This document shows, piece by piece, positions 16,494-63,900 of a DNA stretch of 64,000 nucleotides (position 1 is the first letter of the stretch; each line of letters begins with the position of its first letter). The stretch is from the NCBI GenBank assembly GCA_964019135.1, contig OZ025256.1, positions 23,071,911 to 23,135,910 of the forward strand, given 5' to 3'. The notes below the pieces were generated by a model. It worked only from the letters and a program-made list of their open reading frames with translations. It was not told where the DNA came from and searched no databases. A program made the translations under genes and the position numbers. Source of the stretch: Arenicola marina (taxonomy: Eukaryota > Annelida > Polychaeta > Arenicolidae).

Positions 16494-17697
16494 GTAGACC
16501 TGGAGCTAGACCTGGAGCTAGACCTGGACGTAGACCTGGAGCTAGACCTGGAGGTAGACCTGGAGCTAGACCTGGAGCTAAACCTGGAGCTAGACCTGGA
16601 GCTAGACCTGGAGCTAGACCTGGAGCTAGACCTGGAGCTAGACCTGGAGCTAGACCTGCAGCTAGACCTGGAGCTAGACCTGGCGCTAGACCTGGAGCTA
16701 GACCTGGAGCTAGACCTGGAGCTAGACCTGGAGCTGGACCTGGAGCTGGACCTGGAGCTAGACCTCGGGGTAGATCTGGAGCTAGAGCTGGAGCTAGACC
16801 TGGAGCTAGACCTGGAGCTAGACCTGGAGGTAGACCTGGAGCTAGACCTGGAGCTGGACCTGGAGCTGGACCTGGAGCTAGACCTGGAGCTAGACCTGGA
16901 GCTAGACCTGGAGCTAGACCTGGAGGTAGACCTGGAGCTGGACCTGGAGCTGGACCTGGAGCTAGACCACGGGGTAGATCTGGAGCTAGAGCTGGAGCTA
17001 GACCTGGAGCTAGACCTGGAGCTAGACCTGGAGGTAGACCTGGAGCTAGACCTGGCGGTAGACCTGGAGCTAGACCTGGAGCTAGACCTGGAGCTAGACC
17101 TGGAGCTAGACCTGAAGCTAGACCTGGAGCTAGACCTGGCGCTAGACCTGGAGCTAGACCTGGAGCTAGACCTGGAGCTAGACCTGGAGCTAGACCTGGA
17201 GCTAGACCTGGAGCTGGACCTGGAGCTGGACCTGGAGCTAGACCTCGGGGTAGATCTGGAGCTAGAGCTGGAGCTAGACCTGGAGGTAGACCTGGAGCTA
17301 GACCTGGAGGTAGACCTGGAGCTAGACCTGGAGGTAGACCTGGAGCTAGACCTGGAGCTAGACCTGGACGTAGACCTGGAGCTAGACCTGGAGGTAGACC
17401 TGGAGCTGGACCTGGAGCTGGACCTGGAGCTGGACCTGGAGCTGGACCTGGAGCTAGACCTCGGGGTAGATCTGGAGCTAGAGCTGGAGCTAGACCTGGA
17501 GCTAGACCTGGAGCTAGATCTGGAGGTAGACCTGGAGCTAGACCTGGAGCTAGACCTGGAGCTAGACCTGGAGCTAGACCTGGCGCTAGACCTGGAGCTA
17601 GACCTGGAGCTAGACCTGGAGCTATACCTGCAGCTAGACCTGGAGCTAGACCTGGAGCTAGACCTGGAGCTGGACCTGGAGCTAGACCTGGAGCAAG
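16494..17697. repeat. Second block of the 12-bp GACCTGGAGCTA array
   Basis: About 1.2 kb (close to 100 units) of the same family as the large left array, but more homogeneous. It carries the same variant block (CGGGGTAGATCTGGAGC) seen at 6334, 6862, 7305 and 10022; here the block recurs near 16766, 16970, 17246 and 17461, spaced by multiples of 12. Sharing of this internal variant shows common descent with the left array rather than independent origin. Open frames on both strands are again a result of the period. Confidence 0.93.
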
Positions 17698-28752: not shown

Positions 28753-29600
28753 CCTATAACGGCCCCTATATATTTTTTTTTTTTTTTTTTTTTTTCATAA
28801 ACTTTATTTCACAAATCGTGTGTTACATTTGTAAATACGGTCATTTAAAATACACAGTAGTACGATCACAAAGTGAAAATTGTCTAAAAAAAGAGATGTA
28901 ATCAGATCGTATCTAAGAAAAAACTGTATAAATGCGGCGTAGAATGTCGCTGATGTCGTTCCACTTTAAAAATTTGTAGAGAGTAGCATTGGTTAATAAT
29001 TCGTTCCGTAAAAATAATAACGAAGTAAACTCTTGACGGTAAGCATAGTCTTGGGCATGTAATAACCAGTCTTTGTATAGAATAAATGCTACAACAGATA
29101 TGGCAAAGTTTAAAGCTGCGTTTTCAACACCGACAATGATTTCTGTCAGACCTATTTTGATATTAAGAATATTCGATATTTGTTTCCATATTTCCTTCGT
29201 AAAATAACAGTTATAAATCATGTGATAAATATCTTCAATGCAGCCACATCTATCGCAAAGGTCGGTGGGACATCTACCCCATTTTCTGAGATCCTTTTTA
29301 CATGGTAATATCTGATTAATGATCTTAAAATTAAAAGCCGCTATTCTCTTATCCGGAATATTTCGAATATTTCTTTTGTAGACCAACGAAAAGTTGATAG
29401 GATGGTAGTTTACAATGTCACATAATTTGGTTTCACTGCGTAGTAATCCGCTCTTTTGTTGAATAAACTTATCATATAGTTCTCGACTCTTTTTATTCAC
29501 TCTCGGTGGGTTTAATTTAAGGGTATCACGATTTTTGCTCAACAGCTGCGTACATAACGTTTTAAACGGTTTTAGAGCCCCTATAACGGCCCCTATATAT
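28753..29600 (-). mobile_element. 5'-truncated L1/Tx1-type LINE with perfect 21-bp target-site duplication
   Basis: A minus-strand insertion with all hallmarks of target-primed reverse transcription. The sequence CCTATAACGGCCCC followed by TATATAT occurs at 28753-28773 and again, identical over 21 bases, at 29580-29600. Next to the left copy is a T run (28774-28795), the poly(A) tail read from the other strand, then a 117-bp 3' untranslated region, then the C-terminal part of ORF2. The element is cut off at 29579, so only about 800 bp of 3' end inserted. A perfect duplication and long homopolymer tail point to a young insertion. Confidence 0.9.
28913..29579 (-). pseudogene. C-terminal fragment of LINE ORF2
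   Basis: The minus-strand frame is open from the truncation point (29579) to a stop at 28913, about 220 codons with no internal stop. It contains the CCHC-type zinc-knuckle region found near the end of L1/Tx1 ORF2 proteins (CPTDLCDRCGCIEDIYHM followed by IYNC and FTKEIWK) and the preceding FNFKIINQILPCKKDLRKW block. Reverse-transcriptase and endonuclease domains are absent because of 5' truncation. It differs in sequence and 3' end from the LINE at the right edge of the window, so it belongs to a different subfamily. It is not expected to yield a functional protein. Confidence 0.85.
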
Positions 29601-33933: not shown

Positions 33934-34317
33934 ATGCGCTTAACACACGACCTCAAGTGGTTTCTCTTGATTGGCTGCTTCCTGGGCGGCCTCATTGTTA
34001 TTCCATTGTTACGTCACTCACGCCGCCATCGCCTTAGTAACATAGGCGACGACAATAGTTTCCATGGCGATACGAAAAGGACATACATTTCTTACGCACA
34101 GCGGAGGAAAGTGTTCAACGCTCCGTTTACTGAGTTGGATCCAGTGCTTACCGAGAAGTTCTTGAAGCTCGTGGATCTCAATCCAGAGCCCAATCATCCT
34201 GAACTGATCCGGCTCATTCAAGACGTTGTGGACCCACCCTCCGCGCATGCGCAGAAAGTGCGCATTCGGCCGATGACGCCACAAGCCCAGGAGGTGATGA
34301 CGCTGTTCAGGAACCAG
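33934..34317 (+). CDS. FkbM/Star-like membrane-anchored methyltransferase-fold protein, exon 1
   Basis: First coding exon of a three-exon gene (33934-34317, 35318-35512, 43742-44167) that joins to 334 codons; every junction is phase 0. Exon 1 encodes 128 residues: a short N-terminus, one hydrophobic segment (residues 9-26, WFLLIGCFLGGLIVIPLL) followed by arginines, then a stem region. The whole protein matches the Methyltransf_21/FkbM family in the arrangement seen in Drosophila Star-like proteins: single membrane anchor, then an SAM-methyltransferase fold. Star acts in the secretory pathway in trafficking of EGF-type ligands; whether this protein does so, or methylates anything, is not shown. 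The exon ends AACCAG|GTATGA, a good donor. Start choice: first ATG in frame ahead of the hydrophobic segment. Membrane orientation is ambiguous because positive charge is heavier after the segment. Confidence 0.82.
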
Positions 34318-35317
34318 GTATGAGAATGTCGGGAAGGAACATTAGAGCCGTATTCATAATCGCCACGTAGGCTACGCCACTAAACTTAGCGCTAAGTGGA
34401 AGATTTGTCGAGCGATTATCGGGTTCAAAGTACATAAGTAGTCACCAAAGAAATGGATTTTCTGAATTAGGAAAATGCTAAAATTATATTGAAGATAATT
34501 TCTTAATCATGAGCACCAGCATAACGAGCTGGTGAGGCTAAGACGAAAATGCACTTTTCGTGCGTAACTTACGAGGGGATTATGAATACGGCCCCTGGCC
34601 TCATCCCGGCATCTGACACCATGTAACCATGCATTTGTATGATACAAGACGATTAGATTCACGCTAGCATCGGTACCGAGTGCCAAAAACATTACCACAG
34701 CTGCTATCGGCCGAACATGACTAATGTTAATGGTGATTTCATTAATCACCATTTCCCTACCGATAACTCATTAGTAAGCTGTACATTAATTGAAGCAAAA
34801 CTTGCATTAGGACGCAAACACACTAATTGTGAATATTTTGTTCTTTGGTGTGTTTTTGTGTAATTTTCGTATTATGTTATTTTGCTTTTTGAACTCCACA
34901 AAATGAAGGAAATAAAGTACATTAATACATTTCATTTCTTTGGTAATAATTTGTTTGGAACCTCGCTGAAGTTCGACCATTTTAGTATTGACGCTTGGGA
35001 AACGAAGAGCTTTTCTTCTAGGCCTATCGTGCATGGCCCAGTGTTATTGACTACTCTGTGTACTTCTAGAGATGCGGGTTAGTCGCTTAACATGCACTGG
35101 TCTGTCATTTTGCCCTAATCATGTATAATCAGAAGTAAAATCCCAAAACTTATCTCAGCGCACGTTTGTCGTATCTGTCGGGCACACAACACCTGTTACT
35201 GTCATGGATAACTGTACCAGTTATAACATTCGTTAATATTTCAATAGGGGGTGAGATCCTACTACCACACCCCATAGCTTCCTCTGCCCATCACCCCCCG
35301 CCACCCTCCTGTTTCAG
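34318..35317 (+). other. Intron 1 of the FkbM/Star-like gene
   Basis: A 1,000-bp intron, GT at 34318 and AG at 35316-35317 after a pyrimidine-rich tract (CCACCCTCCTGTTTCAG). It contains a MITE (34345-34595); the rest is AT-rich unique sequence without a recognised gene. Confidence 0.8.
34345..34595. mobile_element. MITE with terminal inverted repeats in intron 1
   Basis: The left end GCCGTATTCATAATCGCC (from 34348) and the right end are inverted copies; the right complement reads GCCGTATTCATAATCCCC. Partial matching extends to about 30 bases (CGTAGGCTACGC versus CGTAAGTTACGC). The element is about 250 bp with no coding capacity. A subterminal hairpin (CACCAGC and GCTGGTG) lies near 34511-34531. 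Ends of the type GGCCGTATTCATAA with an internal TTAGCGCTAAG are common among invertebrate MITEs, as far as I recall; superfamily not assigned, and the target duplication is unclear. Confidence 0.7.
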
Positions 35318-35512
35318 ACGGGCCTGCTGTTTGTGGAGGCGGGAGCCAATGACGGCGACACGGCCTCCAACACTCTGCCACTGGAGCAGCTGCTCGGCTG
35401 GACGGGCCTCCTGGTCGAGATGGACTCCTTCCTGTACACACAGCTGATGGGCAAGAGTCGCCACGCCTTCTCCCTCAACGCCTGCCTCAGCCTCAGCGTG
35501 GCCCCGACCCTG
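35318..35512 (+). CDS. FkbM/Star-like protein, exon 2 (SAM-binding motif I)
   Basis: Sixty-five codons, residues 129-193, joined in phase 0 on both sides. It carries the N-terminal half of the methyltransferase fold: FVEAGANDGD (residues 133-142) is the glycine-rich SAM-binding loop, SNTLPLEQLLGWTG follows as in the family, and LLVEMD (159-164) provides the acidic residue at the end of strand 2. ACLSLSVAPTL ends the exon. The acceptor is TGTTTCAG|ACG. The donor is CCCTG|GTCAGTATTCTGG, and the tandem array that fills intron 2 begins immediately at this donor. If the intron were retained, the frame would run into the array and stop at about 35617. Confidence 0.85.
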
Positions 35513-38500
35513 GTCAGTATTCTGGGGCAGTACTCTGGGGCAGCACTCTGGGCCAGTACTCTGGGCCCTGGTCAATACTCTGGGGCAGTACTCTGGGGCA
35601 GTACTCTGGGGGAGTAGTCTATGCCTTGGTCAATACTCTGGGGCAGTACTCTGGGCCCTGGTCAATACTCTGGGGCAGTACTCTGGGCCCTGGTCAGTAC
35701 TCTGGGGCAGTATTCTGGGGCAGTACACTGGGGTAGTACTCTGGGGGTGTACCTTGGGCCTTGCTTAGTACTCTGGGGCAGTACTTTGGGCCTTGGTCAG
35801 TACTCCGGGGCAGTACTCTGGGGCAGTACTTTGGGCCTTGGTCAGTACTCCGGGGCAGTACTCTGGGGCAGTACTCTTGGGGAGTACCCTGGCCCTGGTC
35901 TGTACTCTGGGGCAGTGTTTTTGGCCTTGGTCAGTACTCTGGGGCAGTATTTTGGGCTTTGGTCAGTACTCTGGGCCCTGGTCAGTATTCTGGGGCAGTG
36001 TATTTGGCCTTGGTCAGTACTCTGGGGCAGTACTTTGGGCCTTGGTCAGTACTCTGGTGCAGTGTTTTTGGCCTTGGTCAGTACTTTGGGGCAGTATTTT
36101 GGGCTTTGGTCAATACTCTGGGCCCTGGTCAGTATTCTGGGGCAGTGTTTTTGGCCTTGGTCAGTACTCTGGGGCAGTACTTTGGGCCTTGGTCAGTACT
36201 CTGGGGTAGTGTTATTGGCTTTGGGCAGTTCTCTGGGGCAGTGTTATTGGCCTTGGTAAGTGCTCTGGGGCAGTACTATTGGTCATGGTCAGTACTCTGG
36301 GTCAGTACTGTGGGCCTTGGTCAGGAATCTGCGCCATGGTTTGTACTATGGGCCTTGGTCAGTACTCTGGGCCTTGATTAGTACCATGGGTCAGTACTGT
36401 GGGCCTTGGTCAGTACTTTGGATCTTGGTCAGTACTCTGGGGCAGTGTTATTGGCCTTGATCAGTACTCTGGGGCAGCGTTATTGGCCTTGGTCAGTACT
36501 CTGGGGCAGTACTAATGGCCTTGGTCAGTACTCTGAGGCAGTGTTATTGGCCTTGGCCAGTATTCTGGGGCCGTACTATTGGCCTTGGTCAGTACTCTGA
36601 TGCAGTGTTATTGGCATTGGTCAGTACTCTGAGGCAGTGTTATTGGCCTTGGTCAGTACTCTGAGGCAGTGTTATTGGCCTTGGTCAGTACTCTGAGGCA
36701 GTGTTATTGGCATTGGTCAGTACTCTGGTGCAGTGTGATTGGCCTTGGTCAGTACTATGGGGCAGTGTTATTGGCCTTGGTCAGTGCTCTGGGGCAGTAC
36801 TATTGGCCTTGGTCAGTACTCTGGGCCAGTGGTATTGGCATTGGTCAGTACTCTGGGGCAGTACTAATGGCCTTGGTCAGTACTCTGAATCAGTGTTATT
36901 GGCCTTGGTCAGTACTCTGGAGCAGTGTTATTGGCCTTGGTCAGTACTCTGGTGCAGTGTTATTGGCCTTGGTCAGTACTCTTGGGCAGTGTTATTGGCC
37001 TTGGTCAGTACTCTTGGGCAGTACTATTGGCCTTGGTCAGTACTCTGGGGCAGTACTATTGGCCTTGGTCAGTACTCTGGGGCAGTACTATTGGCCTTGG
37101 TCAGTACTCTGGGGCAGTATTATTGGCCTTGGTCAGTACTCTGGGGCAGTAGTGTTGGCCTTGGTCAGTACTCTGTGGCAGTGTTATTGGCCTTGGTTAG
37201 TACTCGGGGGCAGTGTTATTGGCCTTGGGCAGTACTCTGGGGCAGTGTTATTGGCCTTGGTCAGTACTCTGGGGCCGTACTATTGGGCTTGGTCAGTACT
37301 CTGGGCCAGTACTCTCGGCCTTGGTCAGTACTCTGGGCCTTGATTAGTTCTATTGGTCAGTACTCTGGGCCTCGGTCAGTACTCTGGGTCTTGGTCAGTT
37401 CTCTGGGCCATGGTCAGTACTCAGGGCCTTGGTCAGTATTCTGGGCCTTGGTCAGGACACCGGGCCTTGGTCAGGACACTGGGCCTTGGTCAGTACTCTG
37501 AGCCTTGGTCACTACTCTGGGCCTTGGTCAGGACTCTGGGCATTGGTCAGTACTCTAGACCTTGGTCAGTGCTCCGGGCTTTGGTTGTATTCTGGGCCTT
37601 GGTCAGTACTCTGGCCTTGGTCAGTACTCTGGCCTTGGTCAGTACTCTGGCCTTGGTCAGTACTCTGGCCTTGGTCAGTACTCTGGCCTTGGTCAGTACT
37701 CTGGGCCTTGGTCAGGACACTGGGCCTTGGTCAGGACACTGGGCCTTGGTCAGTACTCTGGGCCTTGGTCAGTACTCTGGGCCTTGGTCAGGACTCTGGG
37801 CATTGGTCAGTACTCTGGACCTTGGTCAGTGCTCCGGGCTTTGGCTTGTATTCTGGGCCTTGGTCAGTACTCTGGCCTTGGTCAGTACTCTGGCCTTGGT
37901 AAGTACTCTGGCCTTGGTCAGTACTCTGGGCCTTGGTCAGGACTCGGGGCATTGGTCAGTACTCTGGACCTTGGTCAGTGTGCCGGGCTTTGGCTTGTAT
38001 TCTGTGCCTTGGTCAGTACTCTGGCCTTGGTCAGTACTCTGGCCTTGGTCAGTACTCTGGGCCTTGGTCAGTACTCTGGGCCTTGGTCAGTACTCTGGGC
38101 CTTGGTCAGTACTCTGGCCTTGGTCAGTAATCTGGGCCTTGGTCAGTACTCTGGCCTTGGTCAGTACTCTGGCCTTGGTCAGTACTCTGGGCCTTGGTCA
38201 GTACTCTGGCCTTGGTCAGTACTCTGGCCTTGGTCAGTACTCTGGCCTTGGTCAGTAATCTGGGCCTTGGTCACTACTCTGGCCTTGGTCAGTACTCTGG
38301 CCTTGGTCAGTACTCTGGCCTTGGTCAGTACTCTGGGCCTTGGTCAGGACTCTGGGCATTGGTCAGTACTCTGGACCTTGGTCAGTGCTCCGGGCTTTGG
38401 CTTGTATTCTGGGCCTTGGTCAGTACTCTGGCCTGGGTCAGTGCTCTGGCCTTGGTCAGTACTATGGCCTTGGTCAGAACTCTGGCCTTGGTCAGTACTC

Positions 38501-41500
38501 TGGCCTTGGTCAGTACTCTGGCCTTGGTCAGTACTCTGGCCTTGGTAAGTACTCTGGCCTTGGTCAGTACTCTGGCCTTGGTCAGTACTCTGGCCTTGGT
38601 CAGTACTCTGGGCCTTGGTCAGTACTCTGGGCCTTGGTCAGTACTCTGGCCGTGGTCAGTACTCTGGCCTTGGTCAGTACTCTGGCCTTAGTCAGTACTC
38701 TGGCCTTGGTCAGTACTCTGGCCTTGGTCAGTACTCTGGCCTTGGTCAGTACTCTGGCCCTGGTCAGTACTCTGGGCCTTGGTCAGTACTCTGGGCCTTG
38801 GTCAGTACTCTGGGCCTTGGTCAGTACTCTGGCCTTGGTCAGTACTCTGGGCCTTGGTCAGGACACTGGGCCTTGGTCAGGACACTGGGCCTTGGTCAGT
38901 ACTCTGGGCCTTGGTCAGTACTCTGGGCCTTGGTCAGGACTCTGGGCATTGGTCAGTACTCTGGACCTTGGTCAGTGCTCCGGGCTTTGGCTTGTATTCT
39001 GGGCCTTGGTCAGTACTCTGGCCTTGGTCAGTACTCTGGCCTTGGTCAGTACTCTGGGCCTTGGTCAGGACACTGGGCCTTGGTCAGGACACTGGGCCTT
39101 GGTCAGTACTCTGGGCCTTGGTCAGTACTCTGGGCCTTGGTCAGGACTCTGGGCATTGGTCAGTACTCTGGACCTTGGTCAGTGCTCCGGGCTTTGGCTT
39201 GTATTCTGGGCCTTGGTCAGTACTCTGGCCTTGGTCAGTACTCTGGCCTTGGTCAGTACTCTGGGCCTTGGTCAGGACTCTGGGCATTGGTCAGTACTCT
39301 GGACCTTGGTCAGTGCTCCGGGCCTTGGCTTGCATTCTGTGCCTTGGTCAGTACTCTGGCCTTGGTCAGTACTCTGGGCCTTGGTCAGTACTCTGGGCCT
39401 TGGTCAGTACTCTGGCCTTGGTCAGTACTCTGGCCTTGGTCAGTACTCTGGCCTTGGTCAGTACTCTGGGCCTTGGTCAGTACTCTGGGCCTTGGTCAGT
39501 ACTGTGGCCTTGGTCAGTACTCTGGCATTGATCAGTACTCTGGCCTTGGTAAGTACTCTGGCCTTGGTCAGTATTCTGGCATTGGTCAGTACTCTGGGCC
39601 TTGGTCAGTACTCTGGGCCTTGGTCAGGACTCTGGGCATTGATCAGTACTCTGGCCTTGGTAAGTACTCTGGGCCTTGGTCAGTACTCTGGCCTTGGTCA
39701 GTACTCTGGCCTTAGTAAGTACTCTGGGCCTAGGTCAGTATTCTGGCCTTGGTAAGTACTCTGGCCTTGGTCAGTACTCTGGGCCTTGGTCAGTACTCTG
39801 GGCCTTGGTCAGTACTCTGGCCTTGGTCAGTACTCTGGCCTTGGTCAGTACTCTGGGCCTTGGTCAGGACACTGGGCCTTGGTCAGGACACTGGGCCTTG
39901 GTCAGTACTCTGGGCCTTGGTCAGTACTCTGGGCCTTGGTCAGGACTCTGGGCATTGGTCAGTACTCTGGACCTTGGTCAGTGCTCCGGGCTTTGGCTTG
40001 TATTCTGGGCCTTGGTCAGTACTCTGGCCTTGGTCAGTACTCTGGCCTTGGTCAGTACTCTGGCCTTGGTCAGTACTCTGGGCCTTGGTCAGGACACTGG
40101 GCCTTGGTCAGGACACTGGGCCTTGGTCAGTACTCTGGGCCTTGGTCAGTACTCTGGGCCTTGGTCAGGACTCTGGGCATTGGTCAGTACTCTGGACCTT
40201 GGTCAGTGCTCCGGGCTTTGGCTTGTATTCTGGGCCTTGGTCAGTACTCTGGCCTTGGTCAGTACTCTGGCCTTGGTCAGTACTCTGGGCCTTGGTAAGG
40301 ACTCTGGGCATTGGTCAGTACTCTGGACCTTGGTCAGTGCTCCGGACCTTGGCTTGCATTCTGTGCCTTGGTCAGTACTCTGGCCTTGGTCAGTACTCTG
40401 GGCCTTGGTCAGTACTCTGGGCCTTGGTCAGTACTCTGGCCTTGGTCAGTACTCTGGCCTTGGTCAGTACTCTGGCCTTGGTCAGTACTCTGGCCTTGGT
40501 CAGTACTCTGGGCCTTGGTCAGTACTCTGGGCCTTGGTCAGTACTGTGGCCTTGGTCAGTACTCTGGCATTGATCAGTACTCTGGCCTTGGTAAGTACTC
40601 TGGCCTTGGTCAGTACTCTGGCATTGGTCAGTACTCTGGCCTTGGTAAGTACTCTGGCCTTGGTCAGTACTCTGGCCTTGGTCAGTACTCTGGCCTTGGC
40701 TAGTAATCTGGGCCTTGGTCAGTACTCTGGCCTTGGTCAGTACTCTGGCCTTGGTCAGTACTCTGGGCCAGTACTCTGGGCCTAGGTCAGTATTCTGGCC
40801 TTGGTCAGTACTCTGGCCTTGGTCAGTACTCTGGCCTTGGTCAGTACTCTGGCCTTGGTCAGTACTCTGGCCTTGGTCAGTACTCTGGGCCTTGGTCAGG
40901 ACACTGGGCCTTGGTCAGGACACTGGGCCTTGGTCAGTACTCTGGGCCTTGGTCAGTACTCTGGGCCTTGGTCAGGACTCTGGGCATTGGTCAGTACTCT
41001 GGACCTTGGTCAGTGCTCCGGGCTTTGGCTTGTATTCTGGGCCTTGGTCAGTACTCTGGCCTTGGTCAGTACTCTGGCCTTGGTCAGTACTCTGGCCTTG
41101 GTCAGTACTCTGGGCCTTGGTCAGGACACTGGGCCTTGGTCAGGACACTGGGCCTTGGTCAGTACTCTGGGCCTTGGTCAGTACTCTGGGCCTTGGTCAG
41201 GACTCTGGGCATTGGTCAGTACTCTGGCCTTGGTCAGTGCTCCGGGCTTTGGCTTGTATTCTGGGCCTTGGTCAGTACTCTGGCCTTGGTCAGTACTCTG
41301 GCCTTGGTCAGTACTCTGGCCTTGGTCAGTACTCTGGGCCTTGGTCAGGACTCTGGGCATTGGTCAGTACTCTGGACCTTGGTCAGTGCTCCGGGCCTTG
41401 GCTTGCATTCTGTGCCTTGGTCAGTACTCTGGCCTTGGTCAGTACTCTGGGCCTTGGTCAGTACTTTGGGCCTTGGTCAGTACTCTGGCCTTGGTCAGTA

Positions 41501-43300
41501 CTCTGGTCTTGGTCAGTACTCTGGCCTTGGTCAGTACTCTGGCCTTGGTCAGTACTCTGGGCCTTGGTCAGTACTCTGGGCCTTGGTCAGTACTCTGGCC
41601 TTGGTCAGTACTCTGGCCTTGGTCAGTACTCTGGCCTTGGTAAGTACTCTGGCCTTGGTCAGTACTCTGGCCTTGGTACGTACTCTGGCCTTGGTCAGTA
41701 CTCTGGCCTTGGTCAGTACTCTGGCCTTGGTCAGTACTCTGGGCCTTGGTCAGTACTCTGGGCCTTGGTCAGTACTCTGGCCTTGGTCAGTACTCTGGCC
41801 TTGGTCAGTACTCTGGGCCTTAGTCAGTACTCTGGCCTTAGTCAGTACTCCGGCCTTGGTCAGTACTCTGGCCTTGGTCAGTACTCTGGCCCTGGTCAGT
41901 ACTCTGGGCCTTGGTCAGTACTCTGGGCCTTGGTCAGTACTCTGGGCATTGGTCAGGACACTGCGCCTTGGTCAGGACACTGGGCCTTGGTCAGTACTCT
42001 GGGCCTTGGTCAGTACTCTGGGCCTTGGTCAGGACTCTGGACCTTGGTCAGTGCTCCGGGCTTTGGCTTGTATTCTGGGCCTTGGTCAGTACTCTGGCCT
42101 TGGTCAGTACTCTGGCCTTGGTCAGTACTCTGGCCTTGGTCAGTACTCTGGGCCTTGGTCAGGACACTGGGCCTTGGTCAGTACTCTGGGCCTTGGTCAG
42201 TACTCTGGGCCTTGGTCAGGACTCTGGGCATTGGTCAGTACTCTGGACCTTGGTCAGTGCTCCGGGCTTTGGCTTGTATTCTGGGCCTTGGTCAGTACTC
42301 TGGCCTTGGTCAGTACTCTGGCCTTGGTCAGTAATCTGGCCTTGGTCAGTACTCTGGGCCTTGGTCAGGACTCTGGGCATTGGTCAGTACTCTGGACCTT
42401 GGTCAGTGCTCCGGGCCTTGGCTTGCATTCTGTGCCTTGGTCAGTACTCTGGCCTTGGTCAGTACTCTGGGCCTTGGTCAGTACTCTGGGCCTTGGTCAG
42501 TACTCTGGCCTTGGTCAGTACTCTGGCCTTGGTCAGTACTCTGGCCTTGGTCAGTACTCTGGCCTTGGTAAGTACTCTGGCCTTGGTCAGTACTCTGGCC
42601 TTGGTCAGTACTCTGGGCCTTGGTCAGTACTCTGGGCCTTGGTCAGTACTGTGGCCTTGGTCAGTACTCTGGCCTTGGTCAGTACTCTGGCCTTGGTCAG
42701 TACTCTGGCCTTGATCAGTACTCTGGCATTGGTCAGTACTCTGGCCTTGGTAAGTACTCTGGCCTTGGTCAGTACTCTGGCCTTGGTCAGTACTCTGGCC
42801 TTGGTCAGTAATCTGGGCCTTGGTCAGTACTCTGGCCTTGGTCAGTACTCTGGCCTTGGTCAGTACTCTGGGCCTTGGTCAGTACTCTGGCCTTGGTCAG
42901 TACTCTGGCCTTGGTCAGTACTCTGGCCTTGGTCAGTACTCTGGCCTTGGTCAGTACTCTGGGCCTTGGTCAGTACTCTGGCCTTGGTCAGTACTCTGGC
43001 CTTGGTCAGTACTCTGGCCTTGGTCAGTACTCTGGCCTTGGTCAGTACTCTGGCCTTGGTCAGTACTCTGGGCCTAGGTCAGTACTCTGGCCTTGGTCAG
43101 TACTCTGGCCTTGGTCAGTACTCTGGCCTTGGTCAGTACTCTGGGCCTTGGTCAGTACTCTGGCCTTGGTCAGTACTCTGGCCTTGGTCAGTACTCTGGC
43201 CTTGGTCAGTAATCTGGCCTTGGTCAGTACTCTGGCCTTGGTCAGTACTCTGGCCTTGGTCAGTACTCTGGCCTTGGTCAGTACTCTGGGCCTTGATCAC
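35513..43300. repeat. Intronic minisatellite built from the exon 2 donor junction
   Basis: About 7.8 kb of tandem repeats filling almost all of intron 2. Three zones follow in order. First, 35513-36200, mixed units of about 13 bp (GGGGCAGTACTCT) with GTCAGTACTCTGG. Second, about 36200-37300, a 32-bp composite that adds CAGTGTTATTGGCC. Third, 37300-43300, homogenised 18/19-bp units, CCTTGGTCAGTACTCTGG with an optional G. Within the third zone a pattern of about 1.03 kb is repeated four times: marker CCGGGCTTTGGCTTG at 38980/39187, 39986/40211, 41018/41242 and 42056/42262. Units share TTGGTCAGTA-CTCTGG with the real donor CTGGTCAGTATTCTGG. All plus frames are open over long stretches, but this is intronic repeat. 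Confidence 0.93.
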
Positions 43301-43741
43301 TATTCTGGAAGATTCTGGACGTCAAATCGGGGACGGGACGGGGTGGTCAACATACACCACTCCAGGCAGATGTATAGATAATATGTATATGGGATAAAGA
43401 TCATTGCACTCTACCTGTACGTGTATATATGTATGTGATAGACAGTATAAATGTTGATCGGTAGGGGACGAAGTCCTAAAAATAGGGTGATCCATACCTA
43501 TATTTTGCATTAAAAGAATACATCCTCGCTATAACAGGTAGAAGCCCCCGAGAACCACCCTCCCCAGCCCCTCCCCCCTCCCACGCCTCGATCAGCCACG
43601 ATGCCAAGAATCATCCTGAGGATAATAATTATTCACAGGCGAAACAAGCGACTTTTAATACAAACACACTTGGTCCACCAATTTGTGTTGCCAATGGTGC
43701 ATTGCGATATATTTTAACAATGACGTCATTTCCTTTCCTAG
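43301..43741 (+). other. Unique end of intron 2
   Basis: About 440 bp without repeats between the array and exon 3. It includes a C-rich stretch (43555-43590) and ends TTTCCTTTCCTAG, a good acceptor at 43740-43741. No other feature was recognised. Confidence 0.7.
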
Positions 43742-44167
43742 ATGCGCTACACGATTCCTGCTAGCGGTGGAGGTCACATGGTCCGGGAGGTGCGGCGGGG
43801 GGAGGACTGGGGCGGTGCCGGGCCGGCGGGGGAGGAGGGGGGCGTGCGTACAGAGAGGGTGGGCACGGTGCCCTGCTTCCCGCTGGAGAGCATCCTGGCG
43901 GCCCTCGGCGTGCACCACGTCCACTACCTCAGTCTGGATGTGGAGGGCGGCGAGATGGACATCCTGCGCCAGATCCCCTTTCACCTCATCCGGATCGACG
44001 TGCTCTCCGTGGAGTGGAGCCACGTGCCGGAGGGCAAGGACGCGCTGCGTGCCTTCATGGTCAGGAGGGGGTTCGCCGTCCACAGGGACATCACGTACAA
44101 GAACAGAGCCAACAAAATCTGGGTCAAGGACTTTATCTTTGTCCGCCACGACTTTCAGATCAGTTGA
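43742..44167 (+). CDS. FkbM/Star-like protein, exon 3 (C-terminal half of methyltransferase fold)
   Basis: Last coding exon, residues 194-334 and stop TGA at 44165-44167. It begins MRYTIPASGGG, passes through a Gly/Glu/Arg-rich variable loop (residues about 204-233), then VPCFPLESILAALGVHHV, the family block before strand 4. LDVEGGEMDIL (258-268) is the conserved acidic motif of FkbM-type enzymes, followed by IPFHLIRIDVLSVEWSHV (272-289) and PEGKDALRAFM. The C-terminus FIFVRHDFQIS matches the usual last strand. The exon is markedly GC-rich relative to its intron flanks. The first methionine is a splice-junction residue, not a start. No canonical AATAAA was seen in the next 800 bp; a GATAAA variant lies at 44433. 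Confidence 0.87.
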   Translation: MRYTIPASGGGHMVREVRRGEDWGGAGPAGEEGGVRTERVGTVPCFPLESILAALGVHHVHYLSLDVEGGEMDILRQIPFHLIRIDVLSVEWSHVPEGKDALRAFMVRRGFAVHRDITYKNRANKIWVKDFIFVRHDFQIS

Positions 44168-52412: not shown

Positions 52413-53185
52413 GAGCCGGGGGAGGGAACTAAAATAGACAAAAGACAAAAAGGCGGGTGTCTATTGGTCCCCCCCCTCGTGGATCCGCACCTTATATTGA
52501 CCAATATAGTTGAGGCTCAGATCGGCTCGGTGACAACCGTACCGGGCTAGCGGCCTTGCCCCTGTGAGACATACGGGTTATAATGGGTTGATCCACCAGT
52601 GAACCATTTCGTCTCTCAAGGCATATATAAAGTAAGTGGAGTCTAGAGAATTGATAGCGGTGAATATCAAGAGTCCCGGGTTTAAATCCCTGCGTGGGCA
52701 CCCTGGTGGGACCCCCGGGGATCTCTTAGTGCGATGCTCAGTTTTGGAGGATTCCGCGGTAAAGCGTCCCCACTTTTTCAAGTTTACAATCCTCTCGGAA
52801 ACTATTTCACACCCATCTTTTTGCCATTGACCTATAAACATATCCGTTGTTTCTTTCCCATACAAAAATTATGTCCGCTCTAATGGAGCTTTTTTCATCA
52901 GAAAGGTCCGCTCTCTCATGCCTGAAGGGGCACCCAGTGACACCCCCCCCCCCTCCACCTCCCCCACCAGATATGTATAATGGTGCCCCCCCACCCCCTG
53001 GCCTGAGCTCTGATGCTTTCATTGGTCGTCCTCGGACGTTGCCAAGCATCGTTTAGGACTCGTGTGCTCACAGGGAGGCATAACACCCAGCATTCCATTG
53101 TGCTCATTGGCTGAGGAAATATCACAATGGTATGTTGCGGCTGACACTGTACTATTAGATCCAAACGATATATGTCCTTCCAACG
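52413..53185. other. Unique spacer with a possible SINE remnant
   Basis: No gene recognised. Near 52664-52712 the plus strand reads GAGTCCCGGGTTTAAATCCC followed by TGCGTGGGCACC, containing a B-box match (GGTTTAAATCC, 52678-52688) and resembling the same part of the SINE at 24439. The A box is not recognisable, so this may be a decayed tRNA-derived SINE. A C-rich tract lies at 52940-52970. Confidence 0.4.
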
Positions 53186-54432
53186 AGACACGTAAGTCGT
53201 TAGAACGAGATACGTAAGTCGTTAGAACGAGATACGTAAGTCGTTAAAACGAGCTACGTAAGTCGTTAGAACGAGCTACGTAAGTCGCTGGAACGAGATA
53301 CGTAAGTCGTTAAAACGAGATACGTAAGTCGTTAGAACGAGATACGTAAGTCGTTAGAACAAGATACGTAAGTCGTTAGAACGAGATACGTAAGTCGTTA
53401 GAATGAGACACGTAAGTCGTTAAAACGAGATACGTAAGTCGTTAGAACGAGATACGTAAGTCGTTAGAACGAGATACGTAAGTCGTTAAAACGAGATACG
53501 TAAGTCGTTAGAACGAGATACGTAAGTCGTTAGAACGAGATACGTAAGTCGTTAAAACGAGATACGTAAGTCGTTAGAACGAGATACGTAAGTCGTTAGA
53601 ACGATATACGTAAGTCGTTAGAACGAGATACGTAAGTCGTTAGAACGAGATACGTAAGTCGTTAAAACGAGATACGTAAGTCGTTAGAACGAGATACGTA
53701 AGTCGTTAGAACGAGATACGTAAGTCGTTAGAACAAGATACGTGAGTCGTTAAAACGAGATACGTAAGTCGTTAGAACGAGATACATAAGTCGTCAGAAC
53801 GAAATACGTAAGTCCTTAGAACGAGATACGTAAGTCGTTATAACAAGATACGTAAGTCGTTAGAACAAGATACGTAAGTCGTTAGAACGAGATACGTAAG
53901 TCGTTAGAACGAGATACGTAACTCTTTAGAACGAGACACGTAAATCCTTAGAACAAGATACGTATGTCGTTAGAATTAGATACGTAAGTCGTTAGAATGA
54001 GATACGTAAGTCGTTAGAACGAAATACGTAAGTCCTTAGAACGAGATACGTAAGTCGTTAGAACGAAATACGTTAGTCCTTAGAACGAGATACGTAAGTC
54101 GTTAGAACGAAATACGTTAGTCCTTAGAACGAGATATGTAAGTCGTTAGAACGAGATACGTAAGTCGTTAGAACGAGATACGTAAGTCGTTAGAACGAGA
54201 TACGTAACTCTTTAGAACGAGACACGTAAATCCTTAGAACAAGATACGTAAGTCGTTAGAACAAGATACGTAAGTCGTTAGAATGAGATACGCAAATCGT
54301 TAGAACAAGATACTAAGTCGTTAGAATGAGATACGTAAGTCCTTAGAACGAGATACGTAAGTCCTTAGAACGAGATACGTATGTCCTTAGAACGAGATAC
54401 GTAAGTCGTTACAACAAGTTATAAGTCGCTCG
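53186..54432. repeat. 22-bp minisatellite array
   Basis: About 1.25 kb of 22-bp units containing TACGTAAGTCGTTAGAACG, with variants at the GTT (AAA, CTT) and AACGAG positions. Divergence rises toward the right end (CCTTAG, ATGAGA variants). Each unit contains TACGTA and GTAAGT. The array has no long open frame. Its right edge runs into AGTTATAAGTCGCTCGTG, which resembles the inverted sequence at 52351. Confidence 0.93.
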
Positions 54433-55639: not shown

Positions 55640-58600
55640 AGAGTGAACGAGCGAGGGAGGAAGATGAAGGGGAGGAGGAAGATGAATGGGAGGAGGAAGA
55701 GAAGGAGGAGGAAGAGGAAGGGGAAGAGGAAGAGAAGGAGGAGGAAGAGGAAGGGGAGGAGGAAGGGGAGGAGAAAGATGAAGAGGAGGAGGAAGAGAAG
55801 GAGGCGGAAGACGAAGGGGAGGAGGAAGAGAAGGAGGAGGAAGACGAAGAGGAGGAGGAAGGGTAGGAGGAGGAAGACGAAGGGAGGAGGAAGTGTAGGA
55901 GGAGAAAGATGAAGAGGAGGAGGAAGAGAAAGGGGAGGAAGAGGAAGAGGAGGAGGAAGGGGAGGAGGAGGAAGACGAAGGGGAGGAGTAAGAGAAGGAG
56001 GCGGAAGATGAATGGGAGAAGGAAGAGAAGGAGGCGGAAGACGAAGGGGAGGAGGAAGAGAAGGAGGAGGAAGATGAAGGGGAGGAGGAAGAGAAGGAGG
56101 CGGAAGATGAAGGGGAGGAGGAAGAGAAAGAGGCGGAAGATGAAGGGGAGGAGGAAGAGAAGGAGGAGGAAGATGAAGGGGAGGAGGAAGAGAAAGAGGC
56201 GGAAGATGAAGGGGAGGAGGAAGAGAAGGAGGAGGAAGAGGAAGGGGAGGAGGAATGGGAGGAGAAAGATGAAGAGGAGGAGGAAGAGAAGGAGGCGGAA
56301 GATGAAGGGGAGGAGGAAGAGAAAGAGGCGGCAGATAAAGGGGAGGAAGAAGAGAAGGAGGAGGAAGAGGAAGGGGAGGAGGAAGGGGAGGAGGAAGGGG
56401 AGGAGAAAGATGAAGAGGAGGAGGAAGAGAAGGAGGCGGAAGACGAAGGGGAGGAGGAAGAGAAGGAGGAGGAAGACGAAGAGGAGGAGGAAGGGTAGGA
56501 GGAGGAAGACGAAGGGAGGAGGAAGTGTAGGAGGAGAAAGATGAAGAGGAGGAGGAAGAGAAAGGGGAGGAAGAGGAAGAGGAGGAGGAAGGGGAGGAGG
56601 AGGAAGACGAAGGGGAGGAGTAAGAGAAGGAGGCGGAAGATGAATGGGAGAAGGAAGAGAAGGAGGCGGAAGACGAAGGGGAGGAGGAAGAGAAGGAGGA
56701 GGAAGATGAAGGGGAGGAGGAAGAGAAGGAGGCGGAAGATGAAGGGGAGGAGGAAGAGAAAGAGGCGGAAGATGAAGGGGAGGAGGAAGAGAAGGAGGAG
56801 GAAGATGAAGGGGAGGAGGAAGAGAAAGAGGCGGAAGATGAAGGGGAGGAGGAAGAGAAGGAGGAGGAAGAGGAAGGGGAGGAGGAATGGGAGGAGAAAG
56901 ATGAAGAGGAGGAGGAAGAGAAGGAGGCGGAAGATGAAGGGGAGGAGGAAGAGAAAGAGGCGGCAGATAAAGGGGAGGAAGAAGAGAAGGAGGAGGAAGA
57001 GGAAGGGGAGGAGGAAGGGGAGGAGGAAGGGGAGGAGAAAGATGAAGAGGAGGAGGAAGAGAAGGAGGCGGAAGATGAAGGGGAGGAGGAAGAGAAAGAG
57101 GCGGAAGATGAAGGGGAGGAGGAAGAGAAGGAGGAGGAAGAGGAGGGGGAGGAGAAAGGGGAGGAAGAAGACGAAGGGGAAGAGGAAGAGAAGAAGGAGA
57201 AAGATGAAGGGGAAGAGGAAGAGAAGGAGGAGTAAGATGAAAGGGAGGAGGAAGTGAAAGAGGCGGAAAATGAAGGGGAGGAGGAAGAGAAAGAGGCGGA
57301 AGATGAAGGGGAGGAGGAAGAGAAGGAGGAGGAAGATGAAGGGGAGGAGGAAGAGAAAGAGGCGGAAGATGAAGGGGAGGAGGAAGAGAAGGAGGAGGAA
57401 GAGGAAGGGGAGGAGGAATGGGAGGAGAAAGATGAAGAGGAGGAGGAAGAGAAGGAGGCGGAAGATGAAGGGGAGGAGGAAGAGAAAGAGGCGGAAGATG
57501 AAGGTGAGGAGGAAGAGAAGGAGGAGGAAGATGAAGGGGAGAAGGAAGAGAAAGAGGCGGAAGATGAAGGGGAGGAGGAAGAGAAGGAGGAGGAAGAGGA
57601 AGGGGAGGAGGAATGGGAGGAGAAAGATGAAGAGGAGGAGGAAGAGAAGGAGACGGAAGATGAAGGGGAGGAGGAAGAGAAAGAGGCGACAGATGAAGGG
57701 GAGGAGGAAGAGAAGGAGGAGGAAGAGGAAGGGGAGGAGGAAGGGGAGGACAAAGATGAAGAGGAGGAGGAAGAGAAGGAGGCGGAAGATGAAGGGGAGG
57801 AGGAAGAGAAAGAGGCGGCAGATGAAGGGGAGGAAGAAGAGAAGGAGGAGGAAGATGAAGGGGAGGAGGAAGGGGAGGGGGAAGACGAAGGGGAGGAGGA
57901 GGAGAAGAAGGAGAAAGATGAAGGGGAGGAGGAAGAGAAGGAGGCGGAAGATGAAGGAGAGGAGGAAGAGAAAGAGGCGGAAGATGAAGCGGAGGAGGAA
58001 GAGAAAGAGGCGGAAGATGAAGGGGAGGAGGAAGAGAAGGAGGAGGAAGATGAAGGGGAGGAGGAAGTGAAAGGGGCGGAAGATGAAGGGGAAGAGGAAG
58101 AGAAGGAGGAGGAAGAGGAAGGGGAGGAGGAGTGGGAGGAGAAAGATGAAGAGGAGGAGGAAGAGAAGGAGGCGGAAGATGAAGGGGAGGAGGAAGAGAA
58201 AGAGGCGACAGATGAAGGGGAGGAAGAAGAGAAGGAGGGGGAAGAGGAAGGGGAGGAGGAAGGGGAGGAAAAAGATGAAAAGGAGGAGGAAGAGAAGGAG
58301 GCGGAAGATGAAGGGGAGGAGGAAGAGAAAGAGGCGGAAGATGAAGGGGAGGAGGAAGAGAAGGAGGAGGAAGAGGAAGGGGAGGAGGAAGGGGAGGAGG
58401 AAGACGAAGGGGAGGAGGAAGAGAAGAAGGAGGAAGATGAAGGGGAGGAGGAAGAGAAGGAGGCGGAAGATGAAGGAGAGGAGGAAGAGAAAGAGGCGGA
58501 AGATGAAGCGGAGGAGGAAGAGAAAGAGGCGGAAGATGAAGGGGAGGAGGAAGAGAAGGAGGAGGAAGATGAAGGGGAGGAGGAAGAGAAAGAGGCGGAA

Positions 58601-58861
58601 GATGAAGGGGAAGAGGAAGAGAAGGAGGAGGAAGAGGAAGGGGAGGAGGAATGGGAGGAGAAAGATGAAGAGGAGGAAAAAGAGAAGGAGGCGGAAGATG
58701 AAGGGGAGGAGGAAGAGAAAGAGGCGGAAGATGAAAGGGAGGAGGAAGAGAAGGAGGAGGAAGAGGAAGGGGAGGAGAAACGGGAGGAGAAAGATGAAGA
58801 GGAGGAGGAAGAGAAGGAGGCGGAAGATGAAGGGGAGGAGGAAGAGAAAGAGGCGGAAGAT
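55640..58861. repeat. Purine-only 33-bp minisatellite array (left part)
   Basis: About 3.2 kb of nearly pure A/G on the plus strand. The 33-bp unit has core GGGGAGGAGGAAGAGAAGG plus GAAGATGAA, interrupted by GCG (GGAGGCGGAAG) and TGG. In one plus frame it reads Glu-Asp-Glu-Gly-Glu-Glu-Glu-Glu-Lys-Glu-Ala, in another Arg/Lys-rich; the minus strand reads Ser/Pro or hydrophobic Leu/Phe. None has a unique domain. Two adjacent segments from 55861 and 56493 are virtually identical over about 632 bp. A homopurine-homopyrimidine tract of this size can form triplex DNA. Confidence 0.93.
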
Positions 58862-59727: not shown

Positions 59728-60978
59728 AAGATGAAGGGGAGGAGGAAGAGGAAGGGGAGGAGGAAGAGGAAGGGGAGGAGGAAGGGGAGGAGGAAGGGGA
59801 GGAGGAAGACGAAGGGGAGGAGGAAGAGAAGGAGGAGGAAGATGAAGGGGAGGAGGAAGAGGAAGGGGAGGAGGAAGACGAAGGGGAGGAGGAAGAGAAG
59901 GAGGAGGAAGATGAAGGGGAGGAGGAAGAGAAGGAGGCGGAAGATGAAGGGGAGGAGAAGAGAAAGATGAAGATGAAGGGGAAGAGGAAGAGAAGGAGGA
60001 GGAAGATGAAGGGGAGGAGGAAGAGAAGAAGGCGGAAGATGAAGGGGAGGGGGAAGAGAAGGAGGAGGAAGAGGAAGGCGAGGAGGAAGGGGAGGAAAAA
60101 GATGAAGAGGAGGAGGAAGAGAAGGAGGCGGAAGACGAAGCGGAAGAGGAAGAGAAGGAGGCGGAAGACGAAGGGGAGGAGGAAGGGGAGGAGAAAGATG
60201 AAGAGGAGGAAGAGAAAGAGGCGGAAGACGAAGGGGAAGAGGACGAGAAGGAGGAGGAAGATGAAGCGGAGAAGGAAGAGAAGAAGGCGGAAGATGAAGG
60301 GGAGGAGGAAGAGAAGGAGGCGGAAGATGAAGGGGAGGAGGAAGAGAAGGAGGCGGAAGATGAAAGGTGGGAGGAAGAGAAGGAGGAGGAAGACGAAGGG
60401 GGGGGGGAGGAAGAGAAGGAAGAGGAAGATGAAGGGGAGGAGGAAGAGAAGGAGGCGGAAGATGAAGGGGAAGAGGAAGAGAAGGAGGCGGAAGATGAAG
60501 GGGAGGAGGAAGAGAAGGAGGAGGAAGAGGAAGGCGAGGAGGAATGGGAGGAGAAAGATGAAGAGGAGGAGGAAGAGAAGGAGGCGGAAGACGAAGGGGA
60601 AGAGGAAGAGAAGGAGGCGGAAGAGGAAGGCGAGGAGGAATGGGAGGAGAAAGATGAAGAGGAGGAGGAAGAGAAGGAGGCGGAAGACGAAGGGGAAGAG
60701 GAAGAGAAGGAGGCGGAAGACGAAGGGGAGGAGGAAGGGGAGGAGAAAGATGAAGAGGAGGAGGAAGAGAAGGAGGCGGAAGACGAAGGGGAAGAGGAAG
60801 AGAAGGAGGAGGAAGATGAAGGGGAGGAGGAAGAGAAGAAGGCGGAAGATGAAGGGGAGGATGAAGAGAAGGAGGCGGAAGATGAAGGGGAGGAGGAAGA
60901 GAAGGAGGCGGAAGATGAAAGGTGGGAGGAAGAGAAGGAGGAAGACGAAGGGGGGGAGGAACAGAAGGAAGAGGAAGA
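59728..60978. repeat. Purine-only minisatellite array (right part)
   Basis: Continuation of the 55.6-58.9 kb array on the other side of the solo LTR, about 1.25 kb, with the same GGGGAGGAGGAAGAGAAGG core. It ends exactly at the poly(T) tract of the LINE on its right. Long frames on both strands are repeat artefacts. Confidence 0.93.
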
Positions 60979-63900
60979 TTTTTTTTTTTTTTTTTTTTTT
61001 TTTTCAAAATAAAAGTGCGGTACATAGGTACATCAAGTCCAATTGACTTATTCACAACAACAATAAAACATGATGAAGAAAGAAAAGACATTGTTTACGT
61101 CAATGCAATATTTAGTTTCTCAAGCCAGTTACATATATTTTTAATTTTTGTTACCCTGGTTACCCTGTATATGTAAATTTTTTGTGTTAATTCAGCCAGA
61201 AATAATTTATTGATATCGGAGTGAACACATCTAGTTTCTCTTTGGTTAAGTATCAGGTAGATTTTGTATATTATATAGCTGCATACAGTTATTCCAAAGT
61301 TATCTATATAGCTGTTGCAACCAGTTACGATGTCGGCTGGTGTAACAGTTCTACACATTACGAATGAAACAGCTTTCCAAATGTTATTGATATAATCACA
61401 CCAGAATAACATGTGAGGTATGGTATGAGAATCGCGACAGTAAGGACAATAGTCATTTTCTCTTAGTTTCATTTTCTTCAGATTGTAGTTACAAGTTAAA
61501 ATATTGTGCAAAATCTTATAGTTAAATTCTGACAATTTAGAGTCTGTGATGTCAATCACTTTTCGACTAAAAGCTGCCAATGTATCTTCCTCAGCAGGTA
61601 GCAGACACCAATTGCCTAACGCCTTCAGAGGTTTTTTAACCTCGTACTTACAGCTTACTAACGCTTTATATATGTCTTTAGATTTGATATTATTGTTTAA
61701 AAAAGGAATGGAGCCTGTAGTTACACAAGGTAAAATAGTCATGACATCGCGTAGCTTTAACATTATATCTCTATATGGATATAGAGCTTTCTTTAGTAAC
61801 TTGATTTGACGCAGTACATCTCTCTGGTCATTTATCATATGGTACAGGTAGGTTTCATCGACACTTCCATTTGTGAGTTTCAAATGGTGTACTTTAGTGA
61901 TACCAACCTTAATAAACGAATTAAAGAGTAGGCATGTTTTTACACTCCTGTTACCTAACATTACGCTTACGTTTTGGTTTCCCCATAAAGACTCAGTAAG
62001 TAAACTCTCGATATCTTGTGGCTGCGGTCGAACATTTGCTTTCGCGTACGCACTTATGATATTTGAATAGAAGGTGGGCAACTTGGATAACTCAGGCAAT
62101 GCACTTTTTTCACTGAAGCACATGTCAACGATTGGTGTTTGAAACTGCTCGCAATATCCTTTACCTAGGACAGCCCAATTTGCATTATTTTCATCTGCAA
62201 GTAGTCGTATCAGCCACTTGGCTTTCAGGGAGTCAATATTCGAGTCTAAGTCTATCATTGCCACTCCGCCATACGCTTTTGGTGACATCAATACATTACG
62301 TTTAATACGTTCCGTTCTATTCCAGATAAAATTATACAGTAGCTTGTTAAGTTTCTTAACTATGTCGGGTGGCACTATAACGCAGGTTGCAATAAACGAT
62401 ATCTTTGGGATAATTAAGGCTTTTATTACAGTTAGCTTGCCAAAGAGTGTTAACTTCCTTTTTTTCCAGGTACTTAAGACTTTCTCTATGGATAGTAGTT
62501 TGTTAGTCCAGTTTAGATTATTACACTCTTCACTATCATTTCCGATATACACGCCGAGACACTTCACAGGCTCTTCCAATATTGCTATACCGTGGGGGGT
62601 TACCTCTTTTTTATTCCCGCTGGGACCGACATTCATACACATGGTTTTTGCTAGGTTTATTTTTAGTCCTGCCACTTTTTCAAATTCATTTAATTCATCG
62701 AGCACCCCTGTAATTTGTTCGGCGTTTTGTAGGAATAGTGTCAAGTCGTCAGCAAATTGGGATACCTTTAGCTCGTGCTCTTGCTGTCTGATTCGAACCT
62801 TGAAACCCTTTATACCCTTATTGTTTTTAAAATTAATGGCCAGCAATTCAATAGCTATGACGAACAGCATCGCCGAGAGTGGACATCCCTGCTTTATACC
62901 GCGAGACAAGTTAACAAGATTTGAAAAGTGACCGTTGTTTTTTACCCGTGCAGATGAATCTTTATATAACAGTCGGACCCATTGAATGAATGATTTTCCA
63001 AACTCAAATTCTTTTAGTGACTGGTGTAGAAAATCCCATTCTAAACTGTCAAAAGCTTTCTCGAAGTCCAAAAATAGAAGAATACCACTGACATGTTTAC
63101 GATTTGCATAATCTATAACGTCTTGCATCATACGGACATTGCAACCTATAAACCGTTTTGGTATATAACCAGTTTGATCTGGGCTTATGATACTAGATAT
63201 GACTGATTTAAGACGCCGGGCCAGCGCTTGTGCCAGGATCTTATAATCAACATTAGATAGCGTGATTGGTCTGTAGTTTTTAAGTAATCCACGAGAGTTG
63301 CCTTTATGAATGAGCGTTAAAAGCGACGTGCGTTGTGAAACCGACAACATTTCCTCTTCATAGCATTCCTTGTATGATTCAACTAACAAATCTTTTATGT
63401 ATGGCCATAATGCTTGATAAAACTCCACGGTGAGCCCGTCGTTTCCCGGAGACTTGTTTAGTTTCATTGCCATAAGTGCATTTGAACATTCCTGCACTGA
63501 CACATATCCTTCACAGAGATCGCGATCTTCCTTTGACAATACATTTGTAACCTTTACGGCGTCAATATAACTGTTTACGTGGTTAATGTCAGGAGACCTG
63601 CTTTTGTAGAGGCTATCATAGTATTGATGTAATTCCTTCAGGATACAATCTTTGTTTGTGATACGGGTTCCGTCCGGTGATTCTAACATGTCTATACTAT
63701 TATAAGATTGACGAGACTTTTCTAAATTAAGAAAATAAGACGTATTTTTTCCCCTTGCTCTCTCCATTCTGCCCTAGCACGTATCTGAGCTCCTTTTGCG
63801 GTATCACACATCAACATATCGTATTCTGCTTTTAGTGTGGTTCTTTTGACTATCAAGTCAGTAGAGCTATGAAGGACTATGGCTCTCTCGATAACCTTCA

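Follow-up and report, generated by a model that had tools for sequence, protein, structure and literature searches.

Introduction

Minisatellites that span exon-intron boundaries, termed mirages, are described for the lancelet genes encoding Adh3, globins, PGBD5 and troponin C in the available excerpts of two reports (PMC3087553; PMC3902484), the second of which adds PGBD5, cites troponin C as a lancelet case and notes that some of the repeats abut the 5' splice site; according to both excerpts lancelet mirages do not disturb splicing. The present analysis concerns a comparable element in the window, the whole 64-kb stretch of DNA analyzed (G000:C9:23071911-23135910), which is part of a genome of 867 Mb. 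Here an 18/19-bp tandem array occupies 95% of intron 2 of an FkbM-methyltransferase gene, and it is probably a very large mirage-type minisatellite born from the exon-2/intron-2 junction. Because the overlap between exon and array at this locus is weak, comprising 5 bases, the origin from the junction is decided by paralogues and by other genes of the same genome.

As far as the excerpts describe lancelet mirages, the window array resembles them in having a unit that spans a real exon-intron boundary, in the many copies that bear splice signals and in its unit size, which lies within the range of Adh3 (10-72 bp). It differs in scale, with ~300 copies over 7.8 kb versus 2 to 7 copies in the globin and PGBD5 cases, in its 5-base exon overlap and in the recurrence of the phenomenon at many genes of one genome. 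The mirage features found are thus a short-unit tandem array, a real exon boundary and a unit spanning that boundary, by 5 bases at the window locus, by 18 in the paralogue L047 and by 3-40 elsewhere.

Regarding other systems, the internal tandem repeats described at exon-intron boundaries in human paralogues are likewise of minisatellite type and alter gene structure, but in the portion of the source available they are said to create new introns (PMC2812944), whereas here the intron is common to 20 split paralogues. Intron gain by tandem duplication is similar in that splice signals are copied when a duplication crosses an intron-exon boundary; intron 2, however, being present in the 20 split paralogues, was not made by the window array. 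The Caenorhabditis elegans element CeRep25B is also an intronic minisatellite with a possible role in alternative splicing, but the excerpt of its report does not describe it as built from a splice junction (PMC4039745). In the open-licence literature, outside which most subscription journals lie, the only descriptions found concern boundary-spanning minisatellites of lancelets and boundary repeats of human paralogues, and the portions available of papers on Conus, Lucina and earthworm describe none. New with respect to this literature are the hundreds of copies, the recurrence of unrelated units at one donor, the involvement of many conserved genes of one genome and a host that is probably outside the lancelets.

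The array in intron 2 of an FkbM-methyltransferase gene

The gene (33934-44167 in window coordinates, forward strand; Table 1) has three exons of 384, 195 and 426 bases, each divisible by 3 and in phase 0 throughout, which form a single open frame of 334 aa; the product matches Methyltransf_21 (PF05050) in Pfam with an expectation value (E) of 1.8e-11. The donor of exon 2 reads GACCCTG/gtcagtattctg (the slash marking the exon-intron boundary), and as CTG/GTCAGTAT it has 9/11 matches to the U1 complement. Intron 2 (35513-43741) measures 8,229 bp. Tandem Repeats Finder (TRF) places the array at 35511-43308, in rows 35511-43290 and 37253-43308, with the 18/19-bp unit GGCCTTGGTCAGTACTCTG and a score of 8899 for 37253-43308. 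The first-pass annotation had the array start at the exon-2 donor, which holds, the true donor lying at 35512/35513 and the array running from 35511; the end that it gave, 43300, is moved to the TRF end at 43308.

The array is graded along its length. Tiles of the first 1.7 kb match other places in the array at 85-95%, tiles past 1.9 kb at 96-100%; the distal part additionally shows higher-order copies at close to 1.0 kb and 225 bp. Because the proximal tiles are the most diverged and the distal ones the most alike, this pattern suggests that the donor-proximal copies are older and the distal copies younger, the latest growth having taken place away from the donor. Near-identical higher-order copies are hard to assemble, and the copy number is possibly off; that the array is an assembly artefact of a long repeat is nonetheless extremely unlikely, since the same anatomy with other units at many loci shows the type to be real and limits the doubt to the exact length.

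Table 1. Coordinates of the window gene and its array, and exons with arrays at their donors elsewhere in the genome. Positions given as ranges are window positions; C1 and C2 are contigs.
Feature	Position	Strand	Exon bases in unit	Details
Exon 1	33934..34317	+		ATG, 128 codons; donor CAG/GTATGA; open frame and Pfam
Exon 2	35318..35512	+		65 codons, phase 0; homologous exon in paralogues
CCCTG, final five exon-2 bases	35508..35512	+		Also in array copies
True 5' splice site GTCAGT	35513..35518	+		Position is that of the homologous donor of paralogues
Donor-proximal array part	35511..37250	+		Spacing mostly 32 bp; best match elsewhere in array 85-95%
First in-frame stop (TAG) on skipping of true donor	35615..35617	+		+103
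Distal array part	37253..43308	+		18/19-bp units; tiles 96-100% identical to other array places
Unique tail of intron 2	43309..43741	+		433 bp between array and exon 3; acceptor TTTCCTTTCCTAG
Exon 3	43742..44167	+		Carries stop codon
ALDH1L1 exon	C1 0.606 Mb		19	Firm, E=1e-24
Lustrin-type exon	C1 1.754 Mb		3	Weak, below cut-off; antistasin exon just upstream, E=1.3e-9
CHCH-like exon	C1 9.67 Mb		5	Weak, below cut-off
PDZ exon	C1 14.72 Mb		29	Firm, E=2.9e-5, above Pfam cut-off
Exon without database match (L088)	C1 31.99 Mb		21	Frame and splice sites only
Exon without database match, transmembrane stretch (L065)	C1 39.5 Mb		20	Frame and splice sites only
Rapsyn exon	C1 46.09 Mb		40	Firm, E=1.7e-19
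ATM exon	C1 47.82 Mb		27	Firm, E=3.6e-8
Coatomer beta-like (COPB1-like) exon	C1 51.9 Mb		23	Weak, E=0.01
CLC7-like exon	C1 65.4 Mb		12	Weak, E=0.01
TFIP11 exon	C1 70.7 Mb		15	Firm, E=1.8e-19
M50 peptidase exon	C1 76.8 Mb		7	Firm, E=2.7e-8
Wntless exon	C2 0.475 Mb		17	Firm, E=3.2e-7

Unrelated arrays at the homologous donor of paralogues

Across the genome 121 exon-level matches to the protein were found, its own three exons among them. Selected for separate matches to exons 2 and 3, 20 paralogue loci were fetched. Exon 2 reaches the same endpoint, seven codons past CLS, in all 20, and GT stands at the homologous donor in 18/20, with AT in L042 and L044; in L042 exon 2 is moreover interrupted by a stop, and this locus is probably a decayed copy. 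The intron lacks an array in the seven loci on C14 (L039-L045), while donor-located arrays are present in six paralogues: the array of L047 begins 18 bases within the exon and has 63.8 copies of a 35-bp unit, and in L049, L050, L051, L057 and L058 a 39-bp unit occurs in 15-24 copies from +12. Three kinds of array thus occupy one donor (18/19 bp in the window, 35 bp in L047, 39 bp in the L049 group), and no blastn match was found among them. Their independence is deduced from these unrelated units and not from the paralogue tree, which has few firm forks. In the L047 unit the exon bases, GACTATATTACTGTG, code for residues resembling DYVTE (L046) and DHITE (L048) in paralogues with an array-free donor; these bases are family-typical codons and indicate that the exon part of this unit is older than the array.

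A test of the exon-intron junction gave scores of 39-84 at the arrays, the 39-bp group apart, versus 5-8 in ten paralogue introns whose donor lacks an array; these ten introns plus L052 made up the comparison, with L042-L044 outside it. The intron of L052 scored 27, which stems from an exon-end copy at +129 in intron 2. This second, slightly diverged copy comprises 25 bases of the exon-2 end and the donor, is closest to the exon tip of L054 and is perhaps a mirage at a two-copy stage or a product of conversion. Taken together, paralogues without a donor array or with unrelated donor arrays, plus the long exon overlaps in other genes described below, support the earlier proposal that the array was born from a splice junction.

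In many FkbM paralogues a single long open frame encodes the domain and intron 2 is missing; others have that intron. Gain of the intron by the window array is ruled out, intron 2 being common to the 20 split paralogues, most of them without this array; the split paralogues were chosen for being split and unsplit family members exist, so this result covers the split members and not gain or loss across the family.

Arrays at the donors of other genes

Arrays elsewhere in the genome were sought as a donor word occurring three times consecutively with gaps of 8-40 bases, and flanks and starts were read by eye. The sample consists of every array among the matches listed, 18 in all: seven on C1 for AGGTRAGT and CAGGTAAGT, and 11 for GAGGTGAGT from C1 and the first 4.2 Mb of C2, where clusters at 4.16/4.17 Mb were taken as one. 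In this sample 13 arrays start at the donor of a coding exon, two do not (C1 31.54, with no exon recognized, and C1 46.70, which adjoins another array) and three are longer than the stretch fetched (C1 0.331, C1 1.09 and C2 4.17 Mb). The units of the 13 arrays hold 3 to 40 exon bases (Table 1). The repeated tip WCDKIQ of the ALDH1L1 exon is identical in a solved ALDH1L1 chain, and the tip DPVSHEWTD of a dynein exon, found with a control word, is identical in a solved DNAH12 chain; the repeated stretches of exon code for conserved residues, and in both genes the array clearly derives from the exon. The ATM-like exon (L089) has GTCAGT for its true donor, like the window gene, and the copies behind it mix GTCAGT and GTGAGT.

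As for the controls, two arrays stood among the matches listed for the reversed word TGAATGGAC, one of them at an exon donor, that of the dynein heavy chain, with 30 exon bases in its unit. The other (L070, C2:42755000-42756150) is a 20-bp array that, by eye, extends as far as the acceptor of a likely exon on the minus strand; the peptide of this exon has no Pfam match. The reversed word TGAGTGGAG gave ten arrays among the matches listed, one identical with the array at C1 1.754 (L063). In 27.2 Mb an arbitrary word had four array loci, one of them standing for three near-copies at 25.45-25.49 Mb. No exon donor was found at the six ends read of eight, both ends being read for two arrays and one end for the other two. 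One of the arrays found with this word, of 39 bp with one open frame at C1:14.78 Mb (L079/L080), is likely to code for a 13-residue protein repeat.

Among the matches listed, exon-donor starts were found for 13/15 donor-word arrays versus 1/6 control arrays (p=0.0055), the two half-read arrays being counted as negative. By hand count of the matches listed, donor words gave 16 array loci in 127.3 Mb versus 12 in 317.7 Mb for reversed words (p=0.0015). The arbitrary word had 4,458 matches versus 831 for its own reverse, and an enrichment of donor words among arrays is not claimed, as counts per word swing widely.

Exon overlap at the locus and alternative origins

The first-pass annotation stated that the unit matches the last exon bases, the GT and the first intron bases. 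The anatomy is as described, but the exon part comprises CCCTG, 5 bases, a length that a random tip ending in G reaches with p=0.007 when the two variants of the first 300 bp are considered and with p=0.06 for all 18 variants; of 19 other exon tips, none agrees with an array copy over more than 3 bases.

Several observations weigh against birth of the array from the junction. The window-locus overlap is moderately beyond chance and suggestive alone, a lead rather than a proof. The exon-2 end, LSVAPTL, departs from the family pattern PxDYxxE, and the array may itself have altered the exon-2 tip of the window gene. In L046, L048 and L052-L056 arrays lie within the intron, away from the donor, and the junction match of the 39-bp group is weak (score 9-11, 2-6 exon bases). 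Inspection by eye revealed no exon next to any of the window's nine other arrays. For the exons of the 13 donor-word arrays, database matches are firm in 7, weak in 4 and absent in 2, and a search by donor word cannot tell what fraction of arrays in general begins at a donor.

Some of these points would suit a repeat that arose inside the intron and spread to the donor, conversion or exchange then rewriting the exon tip and donor with array sequence. The end of exon 2 in the window (APTL, CTG/GTCAGT) is unlike that of the family, often xxE with GAG/GTRAG, the copies of the first 300 bp have just two tips, one of them GCCCTG, and paralogues with arrays inside the intron fit such a spread. In ALDH1L1, dynein and L047, however, the repeated exon bases encode conserved residues, which makes the exon the source there, and in the window divergence among the copies is highest, not lowest, next to the donor; rewriting from the array is thus considered unlikely.

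It is very unlikely that an ordinary intronic minisatellite came to adjoin the exon by chance, its growth halted there by selection. Minisatellites are very common here, with ten arrays (TRF) between 922 and 60979 making up ~48 kb of the 64 kb (75%) of the window, and an overlap of 5 bases is in keeping with such adjacency. Yet chance leaves unexplained the phase of the unit and the donor word at the start of the array, as well as three unrelated arrays at one donor of one family, and among the matches listed 13 of the 15 donor-word arrays whose start was reached begin right at the donor of a coding exon and take in as many as 40 exon bases.

Donor-like copies and splicing

Several hundred donor-like copies had been predicted between the true donor and the acceptor 8.2 kb away, and the count bears this out: besides the true donor the array contains 302, namely 290 GTCAGT and 12 GTAAGT/GTGAGT. 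GTNAGT occurs 304 times on the plus strand, the true donor counted, and 0 times on the minus strand. The units were scored by computed U1 duplex energy. The commonest donor-like site, TTG/GTCAGTAC with 247 copies, reaches -6.4 versus -6.9 kcal/mol at the true donor, and ten TTG/GTAAGTAC sites reach -10.5 kcal/mol; in all, 21 array sites exceed the true donor in strength, and 26 equal or exceed it. A search of the genome for U1 snRNA gave 42 matches, and the one gene read begins ATACTTACCTG. In 41 of the 42 cases the matches form one cluster (G000:C12:556678-593202), mostly at 616-bp spacing, the last lying at 783 kb. Regarding tandem alternative 5' splice sites, all array copies of GTCAGT/GTRAGT were checked and none is both in frame and free of stops.

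The array could itself be a working part, as a decoy field binding U1, a guard against premature polyadenylation or a tuner of splicing rate, and the 302 copies on one strand only and the 21 sites above the true donor would agree with this. Such a function is very unlikely, however, as paralogues manage without the array, its copies are unequal in strength and its origin alone accounts for the strand bias; U1 abundance makes titration by one transcript implausible. The titration of U1, shift of donor choice and slowing of splicing put forward by the first-pass annotation are not favoured as putative effects, and the available excerpt on lancelet mirages likewise reports no disturbance of splicing (PMC3087553).

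Other repeats in the window and the host genome

Among the other arrays of the window, those at 922-13097 and 16495-17694 have a common 12-bp unit, CTGGAGCTAGAC, and two purine arrays (55656-58861 and 59738-60979) have similar 33-bp units. A 22-bp array of 56 copies at 53182-54415, AACGAGATACGTAAGTCGTTAG, has GTAAGT in its consensus; no upstream exon was noticed and none was searched for. Minus-strand reverse-transcriptase-like sequence of the long interspersed nuclear element (LINE) type adjoins arrays at 28760-29600 and 60980-64000, by eye only.

Regarding the host, searches of the genome without a positive control gave no match to the GFP-family domain or to the mollusc haemocyanin domain. 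A muscle myosin exon is nearest to squid and then to scallop chains. One myosin locus gives four matches to a single profile stretch, as alternative exons would; alternative myosin exons are a protostome habit.

A proposed course of events and its implications

In the origin favoured here, from the exon-2/intron-2 junction, a tandem duplication would once have spanned that junction, and slippage or unequal exchange would then have multiplied the junction segment downstream into the intron, to 7.8 kb. The first copy would keep the full exon and donor, so that further copies are intronic and are removed together by splicing, which may be why such arrays persist. Exon definition (exon 2 has 195 bases and its own acceptor) and the order of transcription would favour the exon-proximal donor, both being generally recognized grounds for a proximal-donor preference, while messages that skip the true donor would hold a stop and be decayed. 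At the other end of an intron splicing tends to use the first AG that follows the branch point; a duplication spanning the acceptor would hence be less silent, and such arrays are predicted to be biased towards donors.

A broader proposition is put forward tentatively and with some doubt, namely that 5' splice sites may be a main birthplace of minisatellites in this genome, donors seeding introns that grow by up to hundreds of copies, repeatedly at one site, with duplications over exon ends being tolerated through continued use of the first donor. If true, the genome would constitute a genome-wide natural experiment on the choice of the first donor. Introns with up to hundreds of near-equal, sometimes stronger donor copies allow a direct test of exon-proximal site preference, and the birth of repeats at splice junctions provides a concrete route for the lengthening of introns and a possible one for the drift of exon ends.

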